Counted from the stretch's first letter, positions 2,508 through 9,346 are shown. The stretch: 48,371 nt of DNA from Spartobacteria bacterium (GCA_947471565.1 CANIVT010000017.1:1-48371), one strand, 5' to 3'. Notes: generated by a model from the sequence alone, not told the origin. Made by a program: numbers and translations.

Positions 2508-2891
2508 CTAAGACAAGCAAGCCTTGCAGGTCCCGTAGAGAATGATCTCGTGGTCGATGACCTCAAAGCCTGGAGGAGCAAGATTTTTGAGACCGCCGGC
2601 CACGCATTTTTGAAGGTCGAAAACCTGACCGCAGTCGCGGCAATGGAAGTGATGGTGGTGCCCCTTGTCGGACCGTTCGTAGCGGGGCGCCTGTCCCGGG
2701 ATCTCGACGCAGCAGACCTGGCCCTCTGCCTGAAGATTCTTCAACGAGCGGTAAACGGTGGCGATGCCCAGCGAGGGCACGACCTTGATTGCCAAGCGGT
2801 GGATGTCATCCGGAAGCAACGGGCCATCCTGTTCCTCCAAGACAGCCTTGATCGCCTCTTTCTGGCGTGTGGTGCGTCGCTCGATACTCAA
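2508..2891 (-). CDS. Fur/Zur-family metal-responsive repressor
   Basis: This 127-residue Fur-family protein has an N-terminal winged helix (residues 1-75, with TVYRSLKNL as recognition region). A metal-binding dimerisation half contains GHHHHFHCRDC and a C-terminal CKAC. Cys84/Cys87 and Cys122/Cys125 form the structural zinc site. The only plausible start is a TTG at 2889-2891; no in-frame ATG lies nearby. It sits 26 bases after the ZnuA-type gene in the same orientation, which favours zinc sensing (Zur) over iron. PerR or Mur function cannot be excluded from sequence alone. It probably represses its own operon through sites in the 3809-3880 divergent region. Confidence 0.85.
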   Translation of the reverse strand: MSIERRTTRQKEAIKAVLEEQDGPLLPDDIHRLAIKVVPSLGIATVYRSLKNLQAEGQVCCVEIPGQAPRYERSDKGHHHHFHCRDCGQVFDLQKCVAGGLKNLAPPGFEVIDHEIILYGTCKACLS

Positions 2892-2917: not shown

Positions 2918-3808
2918 CTATTTCAAGGCGTCGACGATCGTGGAGACATTATGCCTTATCATCGAGTCGTAGGTGGTGGCCTCCTTTTCCCCAAGTCCGT
3001 CTGAGTAGAGAACTCCTCCCGTGCTTGCTCCCGTTTCCAGCGCGATCTGGTTGACCGCGCGGCTGTTCTCGATGCTTTCGAAAAAGACGGCCTTCACCCC
3101 TTCCCTGCGGATGATCCCAACGAGTTCCTTCACGTGTTTTGAGGAGGGCTCCTCTCCTGTAGAGACGCCCTTGACCGGGAGGATCACGAATCCGTAATCC
3201 CTTGCGAAGTACTGGAGTGCGTCATGGGAGGTGACGAGTTTGCGTTTGGAGCGTGGAAGCTCCGAAAGCTTCACGCGGATCCAGCGTTCGAGATCGTCGC
3301 ACGAATCTTGGAATAGTTCTTCACGCTCTTGATAAAAACCTGCGTTAGCTGGATCGGCTTTTTTGAACTCTTGTTCCAGTGTTCTCCCTGCGCGCTCCAT
3401 GTTGGAGATGCTGTGCCACCAATGGGGATCCTCGATCAAGCACCCGTCCTCCTCCAGCCGGAGGGAAGGGATTCCTTTGCTGACATCGATAAAGCGGGTC
3501 TTCCCCTCCACTGTATCGGTGAGTTTCCCGAGGAATCCTTCCATCCCTTTTCCAGTAAAGAGCACCAGATCGGCGTCGGCGACGTTGCGGATATCACGCG
3601 TGGTGGGTTGGAAGTCGTGCGGATCCATTCCTGGGCGGATGATCTCCGTGATCTTGACCCTGTCTCCCCCGATCTGACGCGCCAGGTCGGTCGTGATGGT
3701 CGACAGGGAGGCCACTTTCAATTCGGCGTGCAGGGTGGCCGGGCCCGTGAACACCGTCATGAGGATCCATGGAAGCAAGAAGAGGAGAGTGCGAAGTAAT
3801 GGCTTCAT
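2918..3808 (-). CDS. znuA: Periplasmic metal-binding protein of a zinc/manganese ABC transporter (ZnuA/TroA type)
   Basis: At 296 residues with a signal peptide (residues 1-28), this is a cluster A-I substrate-binding protein that captures Zn or Mn in the periplasm. Likely ligands are His64 (MDPHDFQP), His129 or His132 (DPHWWHS), His195 (TSHDALQ) and Asp270 (YSDGLG). This His/His/His/Asp set occurs in both Zn and Mn binders. The long His-rich loop typical of many ZnuA proteins is absent. The open frame extends upstream, but the ATG at 3806-3808 begins the signal peptide. No znuB or znuC permease or ATPase gene is in the window, so the rest of the transporter must be elsewhere. Confidence 0.85.
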   Translation of the reverse strand: MKPLLRTLLFLLPWILMTVFTGPATLHAELKVASLSTITTDLARQIGGDRVKITEIIRPGMDPHDFQPTTRDIRNVADADLVLFTGKGMEGFLGKLTDTVEGKTRFIDVSKGIPSLRLEEDGCLIEDPHWWHSISNMERAGRTLEQEFKKADPANAGFYQEREELFQDSCDDLERWIRVKLSELPRSKRKLVTSHDALQYFARDYGFVILPVKGVSTGEEPSSKHVKELVGIIRREGVKAVFFESIENSRAVNQIALETGASTGGVLYSDGLGEKEATTYDSMIRHNVSTIVDALK

Positions 3809-3824
3809 AACGATAATGATAGTT
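3809..3824. promoter_or_regulatory. Candidate Fur/Zur operator in the znuA-barrel divergent region
   Basis: AACGATAATGATAGTT is an interrupted palindrome (6 of 8 pairs) rich in GATAAT-like words, resembling Fur-superfamily boxes. It abuts the znuA start codon and faces the barrel gene at 3881. Assignment as a Zur site is inference from position and word content. Confidence 0.45.
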
Positions 3825-3848
3825 CGGTATTGACAGCGCGCGAGATCT

Positions 3849-3874
3849 ATTGATAAAAGGTAATCAGTATCAAT
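3849..3874. promoter_or_regulatory. Inverted repeat upstream of the barrel gene
   Basis: ATTGATA at 3849-3855 and TATCAAT at 3868-3874 form a perfect 7-bp inverted repeat with a 12-base spacer, ending 6 bases before the barrel ATG at 3881. It could be a second operator for the Fur-type regulator or part of the promoter pair. Confidence 0.4.
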
Positions 3875-3880
3875 CACTCC

Positions 3881-4867
3881 ATGCAACCAATACTTCCCTC
3901 GCACCCGATCCGTTCCATCACGGCTTTCTCTCTTCTTGTGGCGATGCTTGCAGCGTCATGTCCGGCACGTCTTGGGGCCTGCGCGTCCTGTCCGAGCGGT
4001 GATGTCGGGACGAGCTATAATTTCCCCGATGGCGCGGGAGGACTCGCCTGGATGCAGTACAACTTCGAGTCGCAGAGCCAGAACTACAGCGGATTCAATA
4101 GAGCCCCTGCCGATGCCAACCATGACAAGTTGATCCAGACCTCCACGATGATCGCCGGGTTCCAATATTTCTGGAATGAGAAGTGGGGATTTCAAGTGCT
4201 CGTACCCTCTGCCAACACCCTCTACAGATATGCCCAACACAATGACGGTCATAGCGAGGAGGAACACGAGGGAGGGCATGAGGAGGAACAGGTTGTCACC
4301 AAGCAGTGGTGGGCGATGGGGGATATTCGCCTGAACGCCATCTGGACGGGGCTTTCGAAAGACCAATCGACCGGAATCAATCTGGGGGTGAAGCTCCCTT
4401 CCGGAAATTGGACCGAACCCAATGTGGAACGCTCCGTGCAGGTCGGCACCGGAAGCACTGACATCCTCTTTGGATTCTACCACCGCCACCGCATCACCAG
4501 CGATGCGCGCTGGAGTTGGTATTCGCAGGCGCAGTTGGACGCCCCGGTGATTTCACAGGGTGGTTACACACCCGGAATCGCCGTCGATGTGGCCGCAGGG
4601 GTGTATTACTCTGGTCTCCGGATCGGAAAGGTGAAGATCCGCCCCATCGCACAGACTCTGTTCACGACGGTTGCGGCAGATTCAGGGCCCGCCGCATCCG
4701 GGCAGAACAACGGCTTCCAACAGCTCTCGTTGGCACCCGGTATCGAGTTTGAACTTCATCCGGTGCGGCTCTACACGGATGTGGCCATGCCGGTAATGAA
4801 TAACGTCTCCGGCAACCAACTCATCGCCCCGGCCCAAGTCAGAGTGATTGCCAGTTATGCGTTCTAG
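3881..4867 (+). CDS. Outer-membrane beta-barrel with a His/Glu-rich loop, probable metal-uptake channel
   Basis: This 328-residue protein has an N-terminal signal peptide. It then shows alternating aromatic and hydrophobic strands and ends in a terminal Phe (VIASYAF), as outer-membrane barrels do. Residues 120-136 form a loop with four His and many Glu (HNDGHSEEEHEGGHEEE), well suited to bind zinc or similar ions. A CASC motif lies near the mature N-terminus. The gene is divergent from znuA and shares its 72-base control region, so it is probably expressed when metal is short. No TonB box or plug domain is visible, so it is not a ZnuD-type receptor. It is better viewed as a passive channel; the ion and mechanism are inferred. 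Confidence 0.75.
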   Translation: MQPILPSHPIRSITAFSLLVAMLAASCPARLGACASCPSGDVGTSYNFPDGAGGLAWMQYNFESQSQNYSGFNRAPADANHDKLIQTSTMIAGFQYFWNEKWGFQVLVPSANTLYRYAQHNDGHSEEEHEGGHEEEQVVTKQWWAMGDIRLNAIWTGLSKDQSTGINLGVKLPSGNWTEPNVERSVQVGTGSTDILFGFYHRHRITSDARWSWYSQAQLDAPVISQGGYTPGIAVDVAAGVYYSGLRIGKVKIRPIAQTLFTTVAADSGPAASGQNNGFQQLSLAPGIEFELHPVRLYTDVAMPVMNNVSGNQLIAPAQVRVIASYAF

Positions 4868-4926
4868 TTATGGATGCCAATGTCGGATCGACATCCGGGT
4901 TGGCGGTAGGTAGGGGTATCGGCCCG

Positions 4927-6300
4927 ATGAGGATCAGGTTTTCATGGATTGCAGCCCTCGCCTTGGTATTTACCGCCGAGGCCAAACCGCCCCCGTTGCT
5001 TGATCCTGTGATCAATATCCTCGAACAGGAGAAGTTGCTGGGCGATTGGTTAGGCTATCGTCCCAAGTGGAAGGATCAGGGCGTGGACATTACGGCCCAG
5101 TCGGTGACCGACATGTTCTGGAACACCGTTGGCGGAGCCTCCCAAGGTAGCGCGTGCGACGGCCTTTTCCAGTTCGGCACCGAGATCGACACCGAGAAAA
5201 CCCTGGGACTGACTGGGGGAACCTTCAACACCACTTGGTTCTGGCTCTACGGTCGCAATCCTTCCGCCTATGTCGGTGATGTCAATGCCGTGAGCGGGAT
5301 CTCCGGTAATCCCGCCTTCCGCTGTTACCAACTTTGGTATCAGCAGAACATTGCCATCGGGGGGGTCGACGATGCCCTCTCCCTTCGGGGCGGTCTGATG
5401 GGAATCGATGCGGAATTCTTTCTAAGTCCGACAGCCCTTCTTTTTGTCAACGGTACCTTCGGTATGCCGGCACTTTTCTCTCAGAATCCCGCCAACAGCG
5501 GCCCCCAATACCCGATGGCAACCCCCGGGCTTCGACTAGCGGTTCATCCCTTCCCTTGGCTGATTGTCCGGAGCGATCTCAGCCAGGCCAACCCCTTTCC
5601 CCAAGATCAGAACCTCCACAACTTTAACTGGAACTTCGGCCCCTCTGGAGGCCTTCTTAGCATCAACGAGGTGGAATGCTCCTGGAAATCCATCTCGAAC
5701 AGGAAACAGCTTCCAGGCACTGCCAAGGCCGGATTTTGGATCCAGTCAGGCCCGAGTCCCGTCGTGCCGGAGGAGTGGTCCTTCGGTCCACCCCAGTCGC
5801 TCCAGTACTGCACAGGTTTCTATGCGATTCTCGATCAGATGCTCCTGCGCGAGCAGGATGCCGCCTGCGCCTCCGGCGGCAAAAAAACGGTCGCTCTTCC
5901 GGTGGGTGGCAGCGCGGTTCCAATCGCCGATTCGGATGATGCCGCCGCCCAGGGACTCAGAAGCTTTCTACGCGTGGGATTCTGCCCTCAGCCCTACAAT
6001 CCGCTTTCCCTCTACACCGATGCGGGACTTGTCTACACGGGATTGATCCCGGGACGGAATGAGGACCAACTGGGGCTCGCCTTCTGCTACGGTCAGATGA
6101 GCAGCGGATACATGGCTGTTGGCAACCAGCAGGGGGTGCCCGGCCCCTCCTTTGAGTCGGTGGTGGAGTTGACCTACTCGATCAGGCTGGCTCCGGCGAT
6201 CGCCCTGCAGCCCGATCTGCAGTATGTGCTCCATCCCGGAGGGAGTCGCCAGTACGGCAATGCCCTTGTCGCGGGCTTCCGGGCCGTGGTGGATTTCTAG
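4927..6300 (+). CDS. OprB-family carbohydrate-selective porin
   Basis: The protein has 457 residues, with a signal peptide MRIRFSWIAALALVFTAEA. It has the OprB opening: 'LGDWLGYRPKWKDQGVDITAQ' is the usual 'L.GDW.G.R..L...Gi' pattern. A barrel ending in a terminal Phe (AVVDF) follows. OprB proteins let sugars diffuse across the outer membrane. The frame is open from 4870, but the chosen ATG gives a proper signal peptide. It lies 60 bases after the His-rich barrel gene and directly before the ligand-gated channel on the same strand, so these three may be cotranscribed. The substrate cannot be read from sequence. Confidence 0.85.
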   Translation: MRIRFSWIAALALVFTAEAKPPPLLDPVINILEQEKLLGDWLGYRPKWKDQGVDITAQSVTDMFWNTVGGASQGSACDGLFQFGTEIDTEKTLGLTGGTFNTTWFWLYGRNPSAYVGDVNAVSGISGNPAFRCYQLWYQQNIAIGGVDDALSLRGGLMGIDAEFFLSPTALLFVNGTFGMPALFSQNPANSGPQYPMATPGLRLAVHPFPWLIVRSDLSQANPFPQDQNLHNFNWNFGPSGGLLSINEVECSWKSISNRKQLPGTAKAGFWIQSGPSPVVPEEWSFGPPQSLQYCTGFYAILDQMLLREQDAACASGGKKTVALPVGGSAVPIADSDDAAAQGLRSFLRVGFCPQPYNPLSLYTDAGLVYTGLIPGRNEDQLGLAFCYGQMSSGYMAVGNQQGVPGPSFESVVELTYSIRLAPAIALQPDLQYVLHPGGSRQYGNALVAGFRAVVDF

Positions 6301-6363
6301 CACGTGGCTCAACTCCAATCAGAGGGTCATGGACTCACGCCAGATCGTGGTGATAATCGGGTA

Positions 6364-7383
6364 ATGATGTTTTCCAGATGTATCAGGAAGGTTGGTTTTG
6401 CCGCATGGGTTGCCATGGCGGCGGCAGGAATGGCAGCTCCGGAGAAAAAAACGCCTCCGCAGAAGCTCGCTCCATCTGCACCCCAGGTGGTCGAGGTCGG
6501 AGTCTGGCCGACAGTCATCTACAACCTGGATGTCCATTCCAACACCTACTACATGACCGCCTATGTCTGGTTCGTTTGGCGTGGTGATATCGATCCGAGC
6601 GAGACGGTCGAGTTCACCAACAATGTCGAGAGCTGGGGGCTGACCAAAGCGAGGACCTATCCGAAGCCCATCACGCTTCCCGACGGCCGCCGATACCAGT
6701 GCCTCCGCATCGAGGGCCGCTTCTTCCAACCTTTCAGTCTGAGGCGCTTTCCCTTGGAGCAGCACATGCTCTCACTGACCATCGAGGACAACACGTACTC
6801 TTCGGACAGGCTTGTCTACCGGTTCGATCAGCGGCATTCCGGCTTGGACTCCGGTCTCGTGATTCCCGGTTGGACGTTGCAGTCCTGGAAGGGAACGGAG
6901 GGAACTCATCATTACGGCACGAATCTCGGCGACGAGACCGTGGGCGCCGATACTTCCGACTACGGCACGATCTGCTTCGAGGTCCGGGTGACCCGTCCCG
7001 TAAACTACTTCCTCTGGAAGATGCTCCTTCCGGTCGTGATCATCCTGCTGGCTTGCTGGACGGCGTTGCTGCTGCATCCCTCTCAATTGGCCTCACGCGC
7101 CGCGATGACCGGGACGGCTCTCCTAACGACCGTCTTCATGCAGCAGGGGTACACCTCCAACCTGCCTGAGTTGAACTATCTCGTCCTGATGGACAAGATC
7201 TACGTCGTTGTCTACCTGCTGATCATTGTTTCGCTTGTTCAGGTCGTGATCCAGGGAGCACTGGAGAAAGTCCATACAAAGGACGATTTTCGGAAAGCTG
7301 TCCTGATCGACAAGGTCAGCGTAATCGTTCAGGCGGCTGCCTTTGCCATCTCCCTCTGGGTGATCAACGCCACCACGAACTGA
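6364..7383 (+). CDS. Pentameric ligand-gated ion channel (bacterial Cys-loop receptor homologue)
   Basis: This 339-residue protein has a signal peptide (about residues 1-24) and a beta-sandwich ligand-binding domain to about residue 210. Its YVWFVWRGDIDP segment matches the 'W..W.D' core, and the loop FQPFSLRRFPLEQHMLSLTIED matches the Pro-loop that replaces the Cys-loop in bacteria. Four membrane helices follow: M1 about 212-237 (with conserved Pro), M2 244-262, M3 270-297 and M4 316-335, with the hallmark 'SNLPE' M2-M3 linker. It should form a five-subunit inner-membrane channel gated by protons or a small molecule. The frame is open from a GTG at 6304, but the ATG at 6364 starts the signal peptide. 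Neighbours on both sides are OprB porins. In M2 the 0' position is Arg245 and no Glu sits at -1' or -2'. Confidence 0.9.
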   Translation: MMFSRCIRKVGFAAWVAMAAAGMAAPEKKTPPQKLAPSAPQVVEVGVWPTVIYNLDVHSNTYYMTAYVWFVWRGDIDPSETVEFTNNVESWGLTKARTYPKPITLPDGRRYQCLRIEGRFFQPFSLRRFPLEQHMLSLTIEDNTYSSDRLVYRFDQRHSGLDSGLVIPGWTLQSWKGTEGTHHYGTNLGDETVGADTSDYGTICFEVRVTRPVNYFLWKMLLPVVIILLACWTALLLHPSQLASRAAMTGTALLTTVFMQQGYTSNLPELNYLVLMDKIYVVVYLLIIVSLVQVVIQGALEKVHTKDDFRKAVLIDKVSVIVQAAAFAISLWVINATTN

Positions 7384-7402
7384 CGGGGTAAACCCCGCAG
7401 CG

Positions 7403-9346
7403 TCAGAAAACGACGTAGAGCCTGGCCCCGAGCGTCCAGACGGTACCCAATGTCCCGTTGCCGGCTGGGTTAACAAGGCACTGGGCATAGGGTTTGAGGG
7501 AGAGCCACTTGGTGGCCTGAATGTTGTAGAAGCCCTCGATGACCTGAGTCGAGGTGTAGGCGGGAAGCTTCGCGTATTCGCCCTGAGTGTAGGTGTTGAG
7601 CCCGTTCTGATAGGAATTGTATTGCTGGCTGTAGAATCCGCAGCCCAGGGCGGCACCGATCTGATCCGCCGGGCGCGCGTTCCAAGGTCCTTTCCAGACC
7701 AGGCCGGTCTGGAAGTAAAAGGGCATCGCCTGATCACCGGGATTGGAGAAAGCCGCCTCGTTGAAGGAGTAGAGGCCGCGGTCCGACAGGGTCTTGGCCT
7801 TGGGGGTGACGGGATTCTTTCCTTCGCTCTGATTATCCGCAGCGTCATGGTGCCGGAAGAGCATCTGGTCGGCCTGGAGGTAGATTCCCATGACGGTGGA
7901 GTTGTAGTTGGATCCCGCTACCTTGCCGGGCACCGTCTGGTCATAATTGTAGGGGGTGTAGCTACAGTTGGGCATGGCCCAGATGTAGTAACCGACGGCG
8001 TACTTTCCCTCGAGCTTGTCGGTGCCCAGTTTCGGGGTCCACCCGATCTCGTTCACGCTGTAAAGACCGTTGCCCGACCAGGTGCTGTAGAGACCCTGCA
8101 TACCGCCTGTGGAGTTATTGTTCGGTGCACCGGCGGTATTGAATCCGCCGTTCTGGGAGTACTTCTGCTGATTGCCGTTGTTCTTGGTGCTTCCGGTTGG
8201 AACCCCGTTTTTGTTGACGGTGGGCACATTGGCATAGGGCACTTTGACCTTACCGATGTAGGAGGGAGAGATATTCGCGTAGGGATAGACGCTCGTCGCG
8301 GTGAACTGAGGATTCTGCGAAACGCCCGTCGCGTTGGCAACGGCCTGATAAAGGCCCGCCTGAATATAGGTGCTCGAGGAGGGTTTCACGCGCAGGGTGC
8401 CGCCCCAGGCCAAGTAGGAGGAACTCCACCCGACCGCGGAGGAGCTGTAGAGGTTGGTTTTGCCGTTGTTGGCTGCAACGGGCATGCCGGGACCATCTGG
8501 GCCCACGCCGATGCCCTTGGAGGAGTTGATCATGTTGTTCTCAAACAATTTTGAGAGCGGTTGCTGCAGGAACTGATCGTAAGGATTCTCCATACCGATA
8601 TTCAGAAATCCGATCCGGTTGGCGTACTGCACGTACTGTTGCATCATGCGCATCCCAAAGCCGCTGCTCATGTCGGTTGGGTTCCAGGCGCTGGTTGTGC
8701 CCGTAGTGCCGGCGGCGTAGGCAGGATTGTTGTCGACCACATTGCGGTAGCGCCAATCAGAGAGGATCGTCACGCCGTCGATTCCAAACACCGGCTTAAA
8801 GTCGTAGAAGAACTTGATGCGGATCTCGGGAATGAAGTTGCTCCGGGGCATCCCGCTCGACTGGGGAAACCCACCTGAGACCTGCCCGAAATAGACATAC
8901 TTCAGGACGCCCTGCATGGTGAGCCCATGATCTTTCAGCGGTTTGCCAAGGCCGAACCAATCACCCGTCGCGCCAGACTGGTCGAGGTAGCGGTGGAATT
9001 GTGCTCCCATTTCCTCTCTGGAGGAAAAGATGTCGAGGTGGGGATTGTAGACTAGGGCAGAGGTGTTGATGTGACTGACGGAATTGACCAAGCCTTGTTC
9101 GGCGTGAACAAGAGACTGCCCTGCGAGGTGGAGTTCCCTTCCGGCTCCGGTAGCCGCGCCGTGGACGAGGCCTTTGACCGCCACTGCGTCCCGATGCAGG
9201 GTCTCCTTGAGTTCTCCGTTCCACCAGCGTTCGATGCGTGAGAGCGGGCTTTCCTTGCTTTCCTGCGGAGCTTGGGGTGAGGAGGCCCTGAGTGAGAGGA
9301 TCGGGAGTGTCAGCAGAAGAAGGGTCAGGGAGAGGCGTTTTGTCAT
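7403..9346 (-). CDS. Large OprB-like porin with N-terminal helical region
   Basis: This is a 647-residue outer-membrane protein with a signal peptide (residues 1-21). A predicted helical stretch covers about residues 30-95, with many Glu, His and Lys in amphipathic spacing. The OprB-type start (GDWFGLGKPLKDHGL) appears near residue 130, and the protein ends in a terminal Phe (LYVVF). Asn/Gly/Ser/Thr-rich segments (about residues 370-430) look like long surface loops. It is convergent with the ligand-gated channel gene, only 19 bases apart. The N-terminal helix might form a trimeric periplasmic stalk, as in some PVC-group porins; that is inference. Substrate unknown, sugars likely. Confidence 0.8.
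   Translation of the reverse strand: MTKRLSLTLLLLTLPILSLRASSPQAPQESKESPLSRIERWWNGELKETLHRDAVAVKGLVHGAATGAGRELHLAGQSLVHAEQGLVNSVSHINTSALVYNPHLDIFSSREEMGAQFHRYLDQSGATGDWFGLGKPLKDHGLTMQGVLKYVYFGQVSGGFPQSSGMPRSNFIPEIRIKFFYDFKPVFGIDGVTILSDWRYRNVVDNNPAYAAGTTGTTSAWNPTDMSSGFGMRMMQQYVQYANRIGFLNIGMENPYDQFLQQPLSKLFENNMINSSKGIGVGPDGPGMPVAANNGKTNLYSSSAVGWSSSYLAWGGTLRVKPSSSTYIQAGLYQAVANATGVSQNPQFTATSVYPYANISPSYIGKVKVPYANVPTVNKNGVPTGSTKNNGNQQKYSQNGGFNTAGAPNNNSTGGMQGLYSTWSGNGLYSVNEIGWTPKLGTDKLEGKYAVGYYIWAMPNCSYTPYNYDQTVPGKVAGSNYNSTVMGIYLQADQMLFRHHDAADNQSEGKNPVTPKAKTLSDRGLYSFNEAAFSNPGDQAMPFYFQTGLVWKGPWNARPADQIGAALGCGFYSQQYNSYQNGLNTYTQGEYAKLPAYTSTQVIEGFYNIQATKWLSLKPYAQCLVNPAGNGTLGTVWTLGARLYVVF

Follow-up and report, generated by a model that had tools for sequence, protein, structure and literature searches.

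The pentameric ligand-gated ion channel (pLGIC) gene described here is probably the final gene of an operon for zinc acquisition, which would be derepressed as a whole when zinc is low. Membership of the channel gene in such an operon, in freshwater Verrucomicrobiota, is well supported by comparison of gene order, and its tie to the zinc block holds within one genus. The window, i.e. the whole stretch of DNA that was analysed, comprises 48,371 nucleotides from a Spartobacteria bacterium genome of 2.28 Mb (G000). GLIC, ELIC and other bacterial pLGICs serve as structural models for nerve receptors, and their bacterial role is largely unknown. Placement in a zinc-uptake operon would give such a channel a concrete physiological setting and predicts that zinc starvation induces it and that zinc, a zinc complex or protons gate it. 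Moreover, an ion channel would join the components usually listed for zinc regulons, with two non-TonB outer-membrane channels as candidate routes of zinc entry.

Genes of the locus

The locus contains the following features:

2508-2891, minus strand: Fur-family metalloregulator, putatively Zur (Pfam FUR, 2.7e-21)
2918-3808, minus strand: ZnuA/AztC-type metal-binding protein of an ABC importer (open reading frame to 3904, likely start at 3808)
3807-3823: AT-rich Fur-like candidate site ATAACGATAATGATAGT at the start of the binding-protein gene
3849-3874: inverted repeat ATTGATA-N12-TATCAAT, ATTGATAAAAGGTAATCAGTATCAAT, candidate operator 3' of a TTGACA element at 3830
3881-4867, plus strand: outer-membrane barrel with a COG4313-channel-like fold and a His/Glu-rich loop (AlphaFold, Foldseek)
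4927-6300, plus strand: OprB-family porin (Pfam PF04966 OprB, 6.4e-54; open reading frame 4870-6300)
6367-7383, plus strand: pLGIC subunit with signal peptide, periplasmic domain and M1-M4 (open reading frame 6304-7383, possible GTG start at 6304)
7403-9346, minus strand: second OprB-family protein of 647 aa (Pfam PF04966, 3.7e-30)

The preliminary description had recognised three of these genes, a complete pLGIC homologue with four membrane helices and a Pro-loop set between two OprB genes, and both the positions of the three reading frames and the nature of the channel were borne out. A phmmer comparison of the channel with GLIC/ELIC-type PDB structures gave 1e-16 across nearly the whole length. 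The AlphaFold model (pLDDT 90.4) consists of a beta-strand domain followed by four helices (residues 193-215, 222-244, 255-283 and 286-318), and its best solved match in Foldseek is GLIC, with an E-value of 4e-23 and a TM-score of about 0.77-0.81. In the alignments, the Pro-loop motif, the Arg preceding M1, the M1 Pro and the M2 9' Leu are all present. Matches to curated profiles stayed below threshold: the NCBIfam profiles LIC and LGIC_1 matched at 1e-13 and 4e-10, both under cut-off, a Pfam search of the protein returned nothing above threshold, and a Pfam Neur_chan_LBD search of the genome, which gave zero matches even in the controls, carries no information. The ATG at 6367 (MFSRC...) is the likely start, as it matches the signal peptides of orthologues. 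Among these orthologues dN/dS ranges from 0.07 to 0.28, indicating purifying selection and thus arguing against a chance reading frame. No Cys pair was found in the sequence around the Pro-loop QPFSLRRFPLEQH, which makes the protein a Pro-loop member; a eukaryote-type Cys-loop receptor was ruled out because the disulfide-forming cysteines flanking QPFSLRRFPLEQH are missing. Taken together, sequence and model comparisons confirm that 6367-7383 encodes a real prokaryotic Pro-loop pLGIC subunit with a confidently predicted GLIC-like fold. The protein resembles GLIC (Gloeobacter) and ELIC (Dickeya/Erwinia) in its architecture, Pro-loop, four helices and lack of a large intracellular domain, and differs from them in sequence (about 18% identity), in its setting in a zinc-uptake operon and in a His pair in the loop-C region.

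The plus-strand run that ends in the channel begins at 3881, one gene before the OprB gene at 4927. The AlphaFold model of this first protein, a barrel (pLDDT 76.7), has the COG4313 channel 4rl8 as its best Foldseek match (E 5e-10). Its His/Glu-rich loop, which covers residues of about 121-134 and connects strands 3 and 4 of the model, probably faces the cell exterior, as judged from the topology. In an alignment of 15 relatives, a repeated His/Glu stretch marks the six barrel copies at the zinc locus, whereas copies elsewhere lack it; the G119 copy has a short His-containing insert. The adjacent OprB protein scores 184.2 bits against a Pfam cut-off of 22.9 and likely starts at 4927 (MRIRFSW...), since this start matches the signal peptides of its orthologues. 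Orthologues with 47-70% identity occupy the same locus in relatives; in G013 and G015 the orthologue is operonic with znuABC, and a 35% homologue lies with znuABC in G002, a member of a sister genus. Thus, by gene neighbourhood, this OprB is linked with zinc uptake in two genera.

The framing of the channel by two porins holds for the upstream OprB, which is conserved, and fails for the downstream one. The latter carries a long N-terminal extension and is encoded convergently with the channel; among the relatives examined, none showed it at this locus, and we therefore rejected it as the partner of the channel. It is probably a separate acquisition.

Zinc-type genes and candidate operators

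Two genes diverge from the plus-strand run. The best PDB match of the regulator is M. tuberculosis FurB/Zur (2o03), narrowly above Fur, and NCBIfam profiles do not separate Zur, Fur and PerR for this protein. It is one of three FUR paralogues in its genome, and its orthologue adjoins znuABC in G013 and G015. The binding protein matches Pfam ZnuA at 2.5e-73, and its best NCBIfam profile is AztC, under cut-off. Alignment with YfeA and other metal-binding chains places H-H-H-D at the ligand positions, the third His being Glu in YfeA; as zinc-type members share these ligands, we regard the binding protein as zinc-type. Its pairing with an importer is presumptive, because the sole ABC-3 permease of the genome is located on another contig (G000:C3), where an ABC ATPase and a HupE/UreJ gene adjoin it. 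No COG0523 gene was found in the same genome, and the evidence on ZigA given below is therefore drawn from relatives.

Two kinds of sites in the divergent promoter are candidate operators, namely the 3849-3874 repeat and the ATAATGATAAT-like sites. The 24-bp core of the repeat, TTGATA-N12-TATCAA, occurs in a single copy in the genome. The repeat ATTGATAAAAGGTAATCAGTATCAAT is kept in six genomes (G000, G009, G010, G011, G020 and G021), which differ by one spacer base, plus one outer base in G010. Its arms recur as TTGATAATTTATTATCAA before znuABC-oprB of G002, and within the ~1 Mb examined, arms within 14 bp were confined to the divergent promoter, its counterparts in relatives, G002 and, twice, one unrelated locus. 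The site at 3807-3823 contains two one-mismatch matches to ATAATGATAAT, which is found exactly or with one mismatch at the start of the binding-protein gene in G009, G012, G014 and G018. The palindrome had no match upstream of the genome's own znuCB region; with a single site in the genome, a genome-wide regulon could not be drawn from it.

Gene order in relatives

Orthologues of the channel (57-78%) are present in nine of the 16 genomes of the genus. Outside it, a search of 213 order-level and 388 phylum-level genomes yielded no close orthologue and only distant pLGICs. The flank upstream of the channel could be read in seven orthologue-bearing genomes, in all of which the channel ends a zinc-type block:

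G000: barrel-OprB-channel
G010 and G011: barrel-OprB-methyltransferase-channel
G014: FTR1-OprB-methyltransferase-channel
G017: OprB-methyltransferase-channel
G019: COG0523-methyltransferase-channel
G020: CobW_C protein with a His-rich stretch-methyltransferase-channel

The channel was expected from the preliminary description to pair with OprB, and it does so, with or without an intervening methyltransferase, in five of the seven (G000, G010, G011, G014 and G017); in G019 and G020 a COG0523 gene and the methyltransferase precede it instead. In several genomes the channel is on the same strand as its upstream gene, from which it is separated by about 50-70 bp. The two remaining orthologues, in G016 and G018, lie on contigs that begin at or inside the channel gene, and another contig of each genome has OprB-methyltransferase at its end, joined in G018 by a type VI secretion gene. 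With the contig order that we infer for G018, type VI secretion genes (L085 3870-4411 and L029 1064-6101) would separate the methyltransferase end from the channel orthologue, as though such a cluster had been inserted there.

The 243-aa SAM methyltransferase (L025 8962-9693 and orthologues) separates OprB from the channel in most relatives and is absent at the window locus; metallophore modification is one guess for its role in a zinc block. An FTR1-type metal permease (L027 3480-4514, minus strand) takes the place of the His/Glu-loop barrel upstream of OprB in G014.

In the zinc block of G020, orthologues of the regulator, the binding protein, the barrel and OprB come first, and then a second FUR, a choice-of-anchor-M PEP-CTERM protein (the class being assigned in the near-identical block of G021), three COG0523 GTPases, a WD40 protein, ZnuA2, ZnuC and ZnuB. 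One of these GTPases passes the cut-off for the zinc metallochaperone ZigA (635.5 vs 600 bits). As a whole, L078 (G020:C20, 3901-19108) is a large zinc island with two FUR regulators, two ZnuA-type proteins, an ABC ATPase and an ABC-3 permease. The block of G021 matches that of G020 as far as two GTPases and then has the methyltransferase and no channel. In G013 and G015, the regulator is followed by a divergent znuA-znuC-znuB-oprB-methyltransferase run; the orthologous binding protein is missing there, and the znu genes represent a different ABC set. The sister-genus genome G002 has znuABC-oprB. The locus and its relatives thus display a trait of Zur regulons, the clustering of zinc-uptake and zinc-chaperone genes with a FUR-family regulator.

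The zinc block occurs with no channel gene in six genomes (G008, G009, G012, G013, G015 and G021); the channel is therefore dispensable. The genes downstream, ubiD, a phytoene synthase and a CDP-alcohol transferase, are conserved as well; since all orthologues belong to a single genus and have this synteny in common, they are not fully independent observations.

As a control, we inspected 29 distant pLGIC loci from the genus, order and phylum, and none of them carried a FUR, ZnuA, COG0523, OprB or barrel gene; three weak ZnuC matches were generic ABC ATPases. Proximity to porins thus gives way to the zinc locus as what the orthologues share. The contrast between orthologous and distant loci is strong in kind and is not a count of independent events. 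What comes closest to an independent point is that in two genomes, G019 and G020, a zinc chaperone gene and not a porin lies upstream of the methyltransferase-channel pair.

Proposed role of the channel and competing explanations

Aligned on its NLP motif, the M2 helix of the channel reads -2'A, -1'S, 0'R, 2'A, 6'T and 9'L. Cation channels such as GLIC carry an acidic ring in M2, formed in GLIC by Glu at -2'. This Glu (GLIC numbering) is missing from the channel, which lacks an acidic ring at -2', -1' and 2' and has Arg at 0'; zinc conduction is therefore unlikely, and the pore is possibly anion-leaning. An invariant His-His pair in the loop-C region is suggestive of a metal site in the channel. 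A His-rich sensor domain was dropped as an argument for zinc, since total His content is ordinary (4-6 His in orthologues vs 1-6 in other pLGICs).

For the ligand, ion and role of the channel we infer the following scheme. Zinc scarcity would derepress the regulator-controlled block including the channel; zinc or zinc complexes would cross the outer membrane via both barrels, and the binding protein would pass zinc to a ZnuBC importer encoded elsewhere. The pLGIC pentamer would reside in the inner membrane and expose its sensor domain to the periplasm. It may detect a signal there, the simplest candidates being zinc, a zinc complex and protons, and open an ion path, probably not for zinc and perhaps anion-leaning. 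The resulting flux would serve to adjust membrane potential or to balance charge while zinc is being scavenged. The combination of outer-membrane entry and gated inner-membrane flux, as pictured at the outset, remains a fair one, OprB and channel being linked in five genomes. A more specific version, in which a zinc- or zinc-complex-gated, probably non-cation-selective channel acts as inner-membrane sensor and effector of a Zur-controlled zinc-scavenging operon, with the loop-C His pair as part of the metal site and the whole channel as a functional analogue of the animal zinc-activated channel, is tentative and rather doubtful.

Several other explanations compete with membership in a zinc operon. 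The channel might be a mere neighbour, held by synteny between the zinc operon and the ubiD region, with its own promoter and a job unrelated to zinc. The conserved downstream genes and the six channel-less blocks speak for this, as does a promoter-like match at 6330-6357, just before the channel, which is weak and of a density expected by chance. We nevertheless consider it unlikely, because the channel closely follows its upstream gene on the same strand, because its upstream partner varies (barrel-OprB, FTR1-OprB or COG0523) yet is always metal-related, and because the channel-less blocks of G008, G009 and G013 still end at the same place beside ubiD. That the unit serves iron or manganese, with a Fur or Mn-type regulator and a signal other than zinc, is quite improbable: the binding-protein ligands, the ZigA match within the block, znuABC in the operon and Zur as closest PDB relative of the regulator outweigh the FTR1 (iron-type) permease of G014, the resemblance of GATAATGATAAT-like sites to Fur boxes and the FUR subtype left unsettled by the profiles.

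Entry of a carbohydrate or other nutrient via OprB, coupled to a sugar- or solute-gated channel, draws on the family name, carbohydrate-selective porin, and resembles the nutrient-sensing unit envisaged in the preliminary description. We judge it very improbable, as no sugar genes were recognised at the locus in orthologue-bearing relatives, the second OprB is not conserved, and the porin partners are znuABC (G013, G015 and G002) or a zinc-type binding protein and Fur regulator. Least credible is zinc passage into the cytoplasm through the channel itself; the operon context would accommodate this, but the M2 residues argue against it and a dedicated ABC importer exists.

The preferred reading, a channel within a zinc-acquisition operon, finds parallels in known systems. 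Zur regulons (PMC6103462; ZepA system, PMC10957091) share with the locus an ABC zinc importer, COG0523 GTPases, outer-membrane proteins, a PEP-CTERM exoprotein and an adjacent FUR regulator, and zepA-type zinc loci of PVC bacteria lie in a similar setting beside FUR genes (PMC10957091). The Zur-regulon review (PMC6103462) mentions no ion channel, in contrast to the window locus, and in the literature that we searched, mostly open-access papers, a pLGIC within a zinc operon or regulon was not described. ELIC has an outer site at which Zn2+ and Ca2+ act as inhibitors (PMC3502511). The human ZAC is a pLGIC gated by zinc and protons whose zinc site has resisted mapping; it is an animal Cys-loop protein and at most a possible analogue of the bacterial channel (PMC11359809). 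In Tasneem et al. 2004 (PMC549065), bacterial pLGIC operons are described with PBP-II, Cache and Na+/H+ symporter partners, and small-solute sensing and a function as chemotaxis receptors were proposed. These operons resemble the window locus in placing a pLGIC near periplasmic-binding-type proteins, and differ in their partners, the words metal and porin being absent from that paper (PMC549065).

Some distant pLGIC loci have features of their own. At L033 (10204-12418) and L034 (201-2417), a distant pLGIC is directly followed by an ionotropic-glutamate-receptor-like gene (SBP_bac_3 and Lig_chan) with a ShlB/FhaC-type gene alongside, so that two neuroreceptor-type channel families occur in one apparent operon. 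In G112 (L070, 4940-5851 and 7907-9100), a reading frame that by eye resembles a cation-diffusion-facilitator metal exporter, a family outside the marker set of the 29 loci, is 2 kb away from a distant pLGIC gene whose product likewise has a His in its loop-C region.
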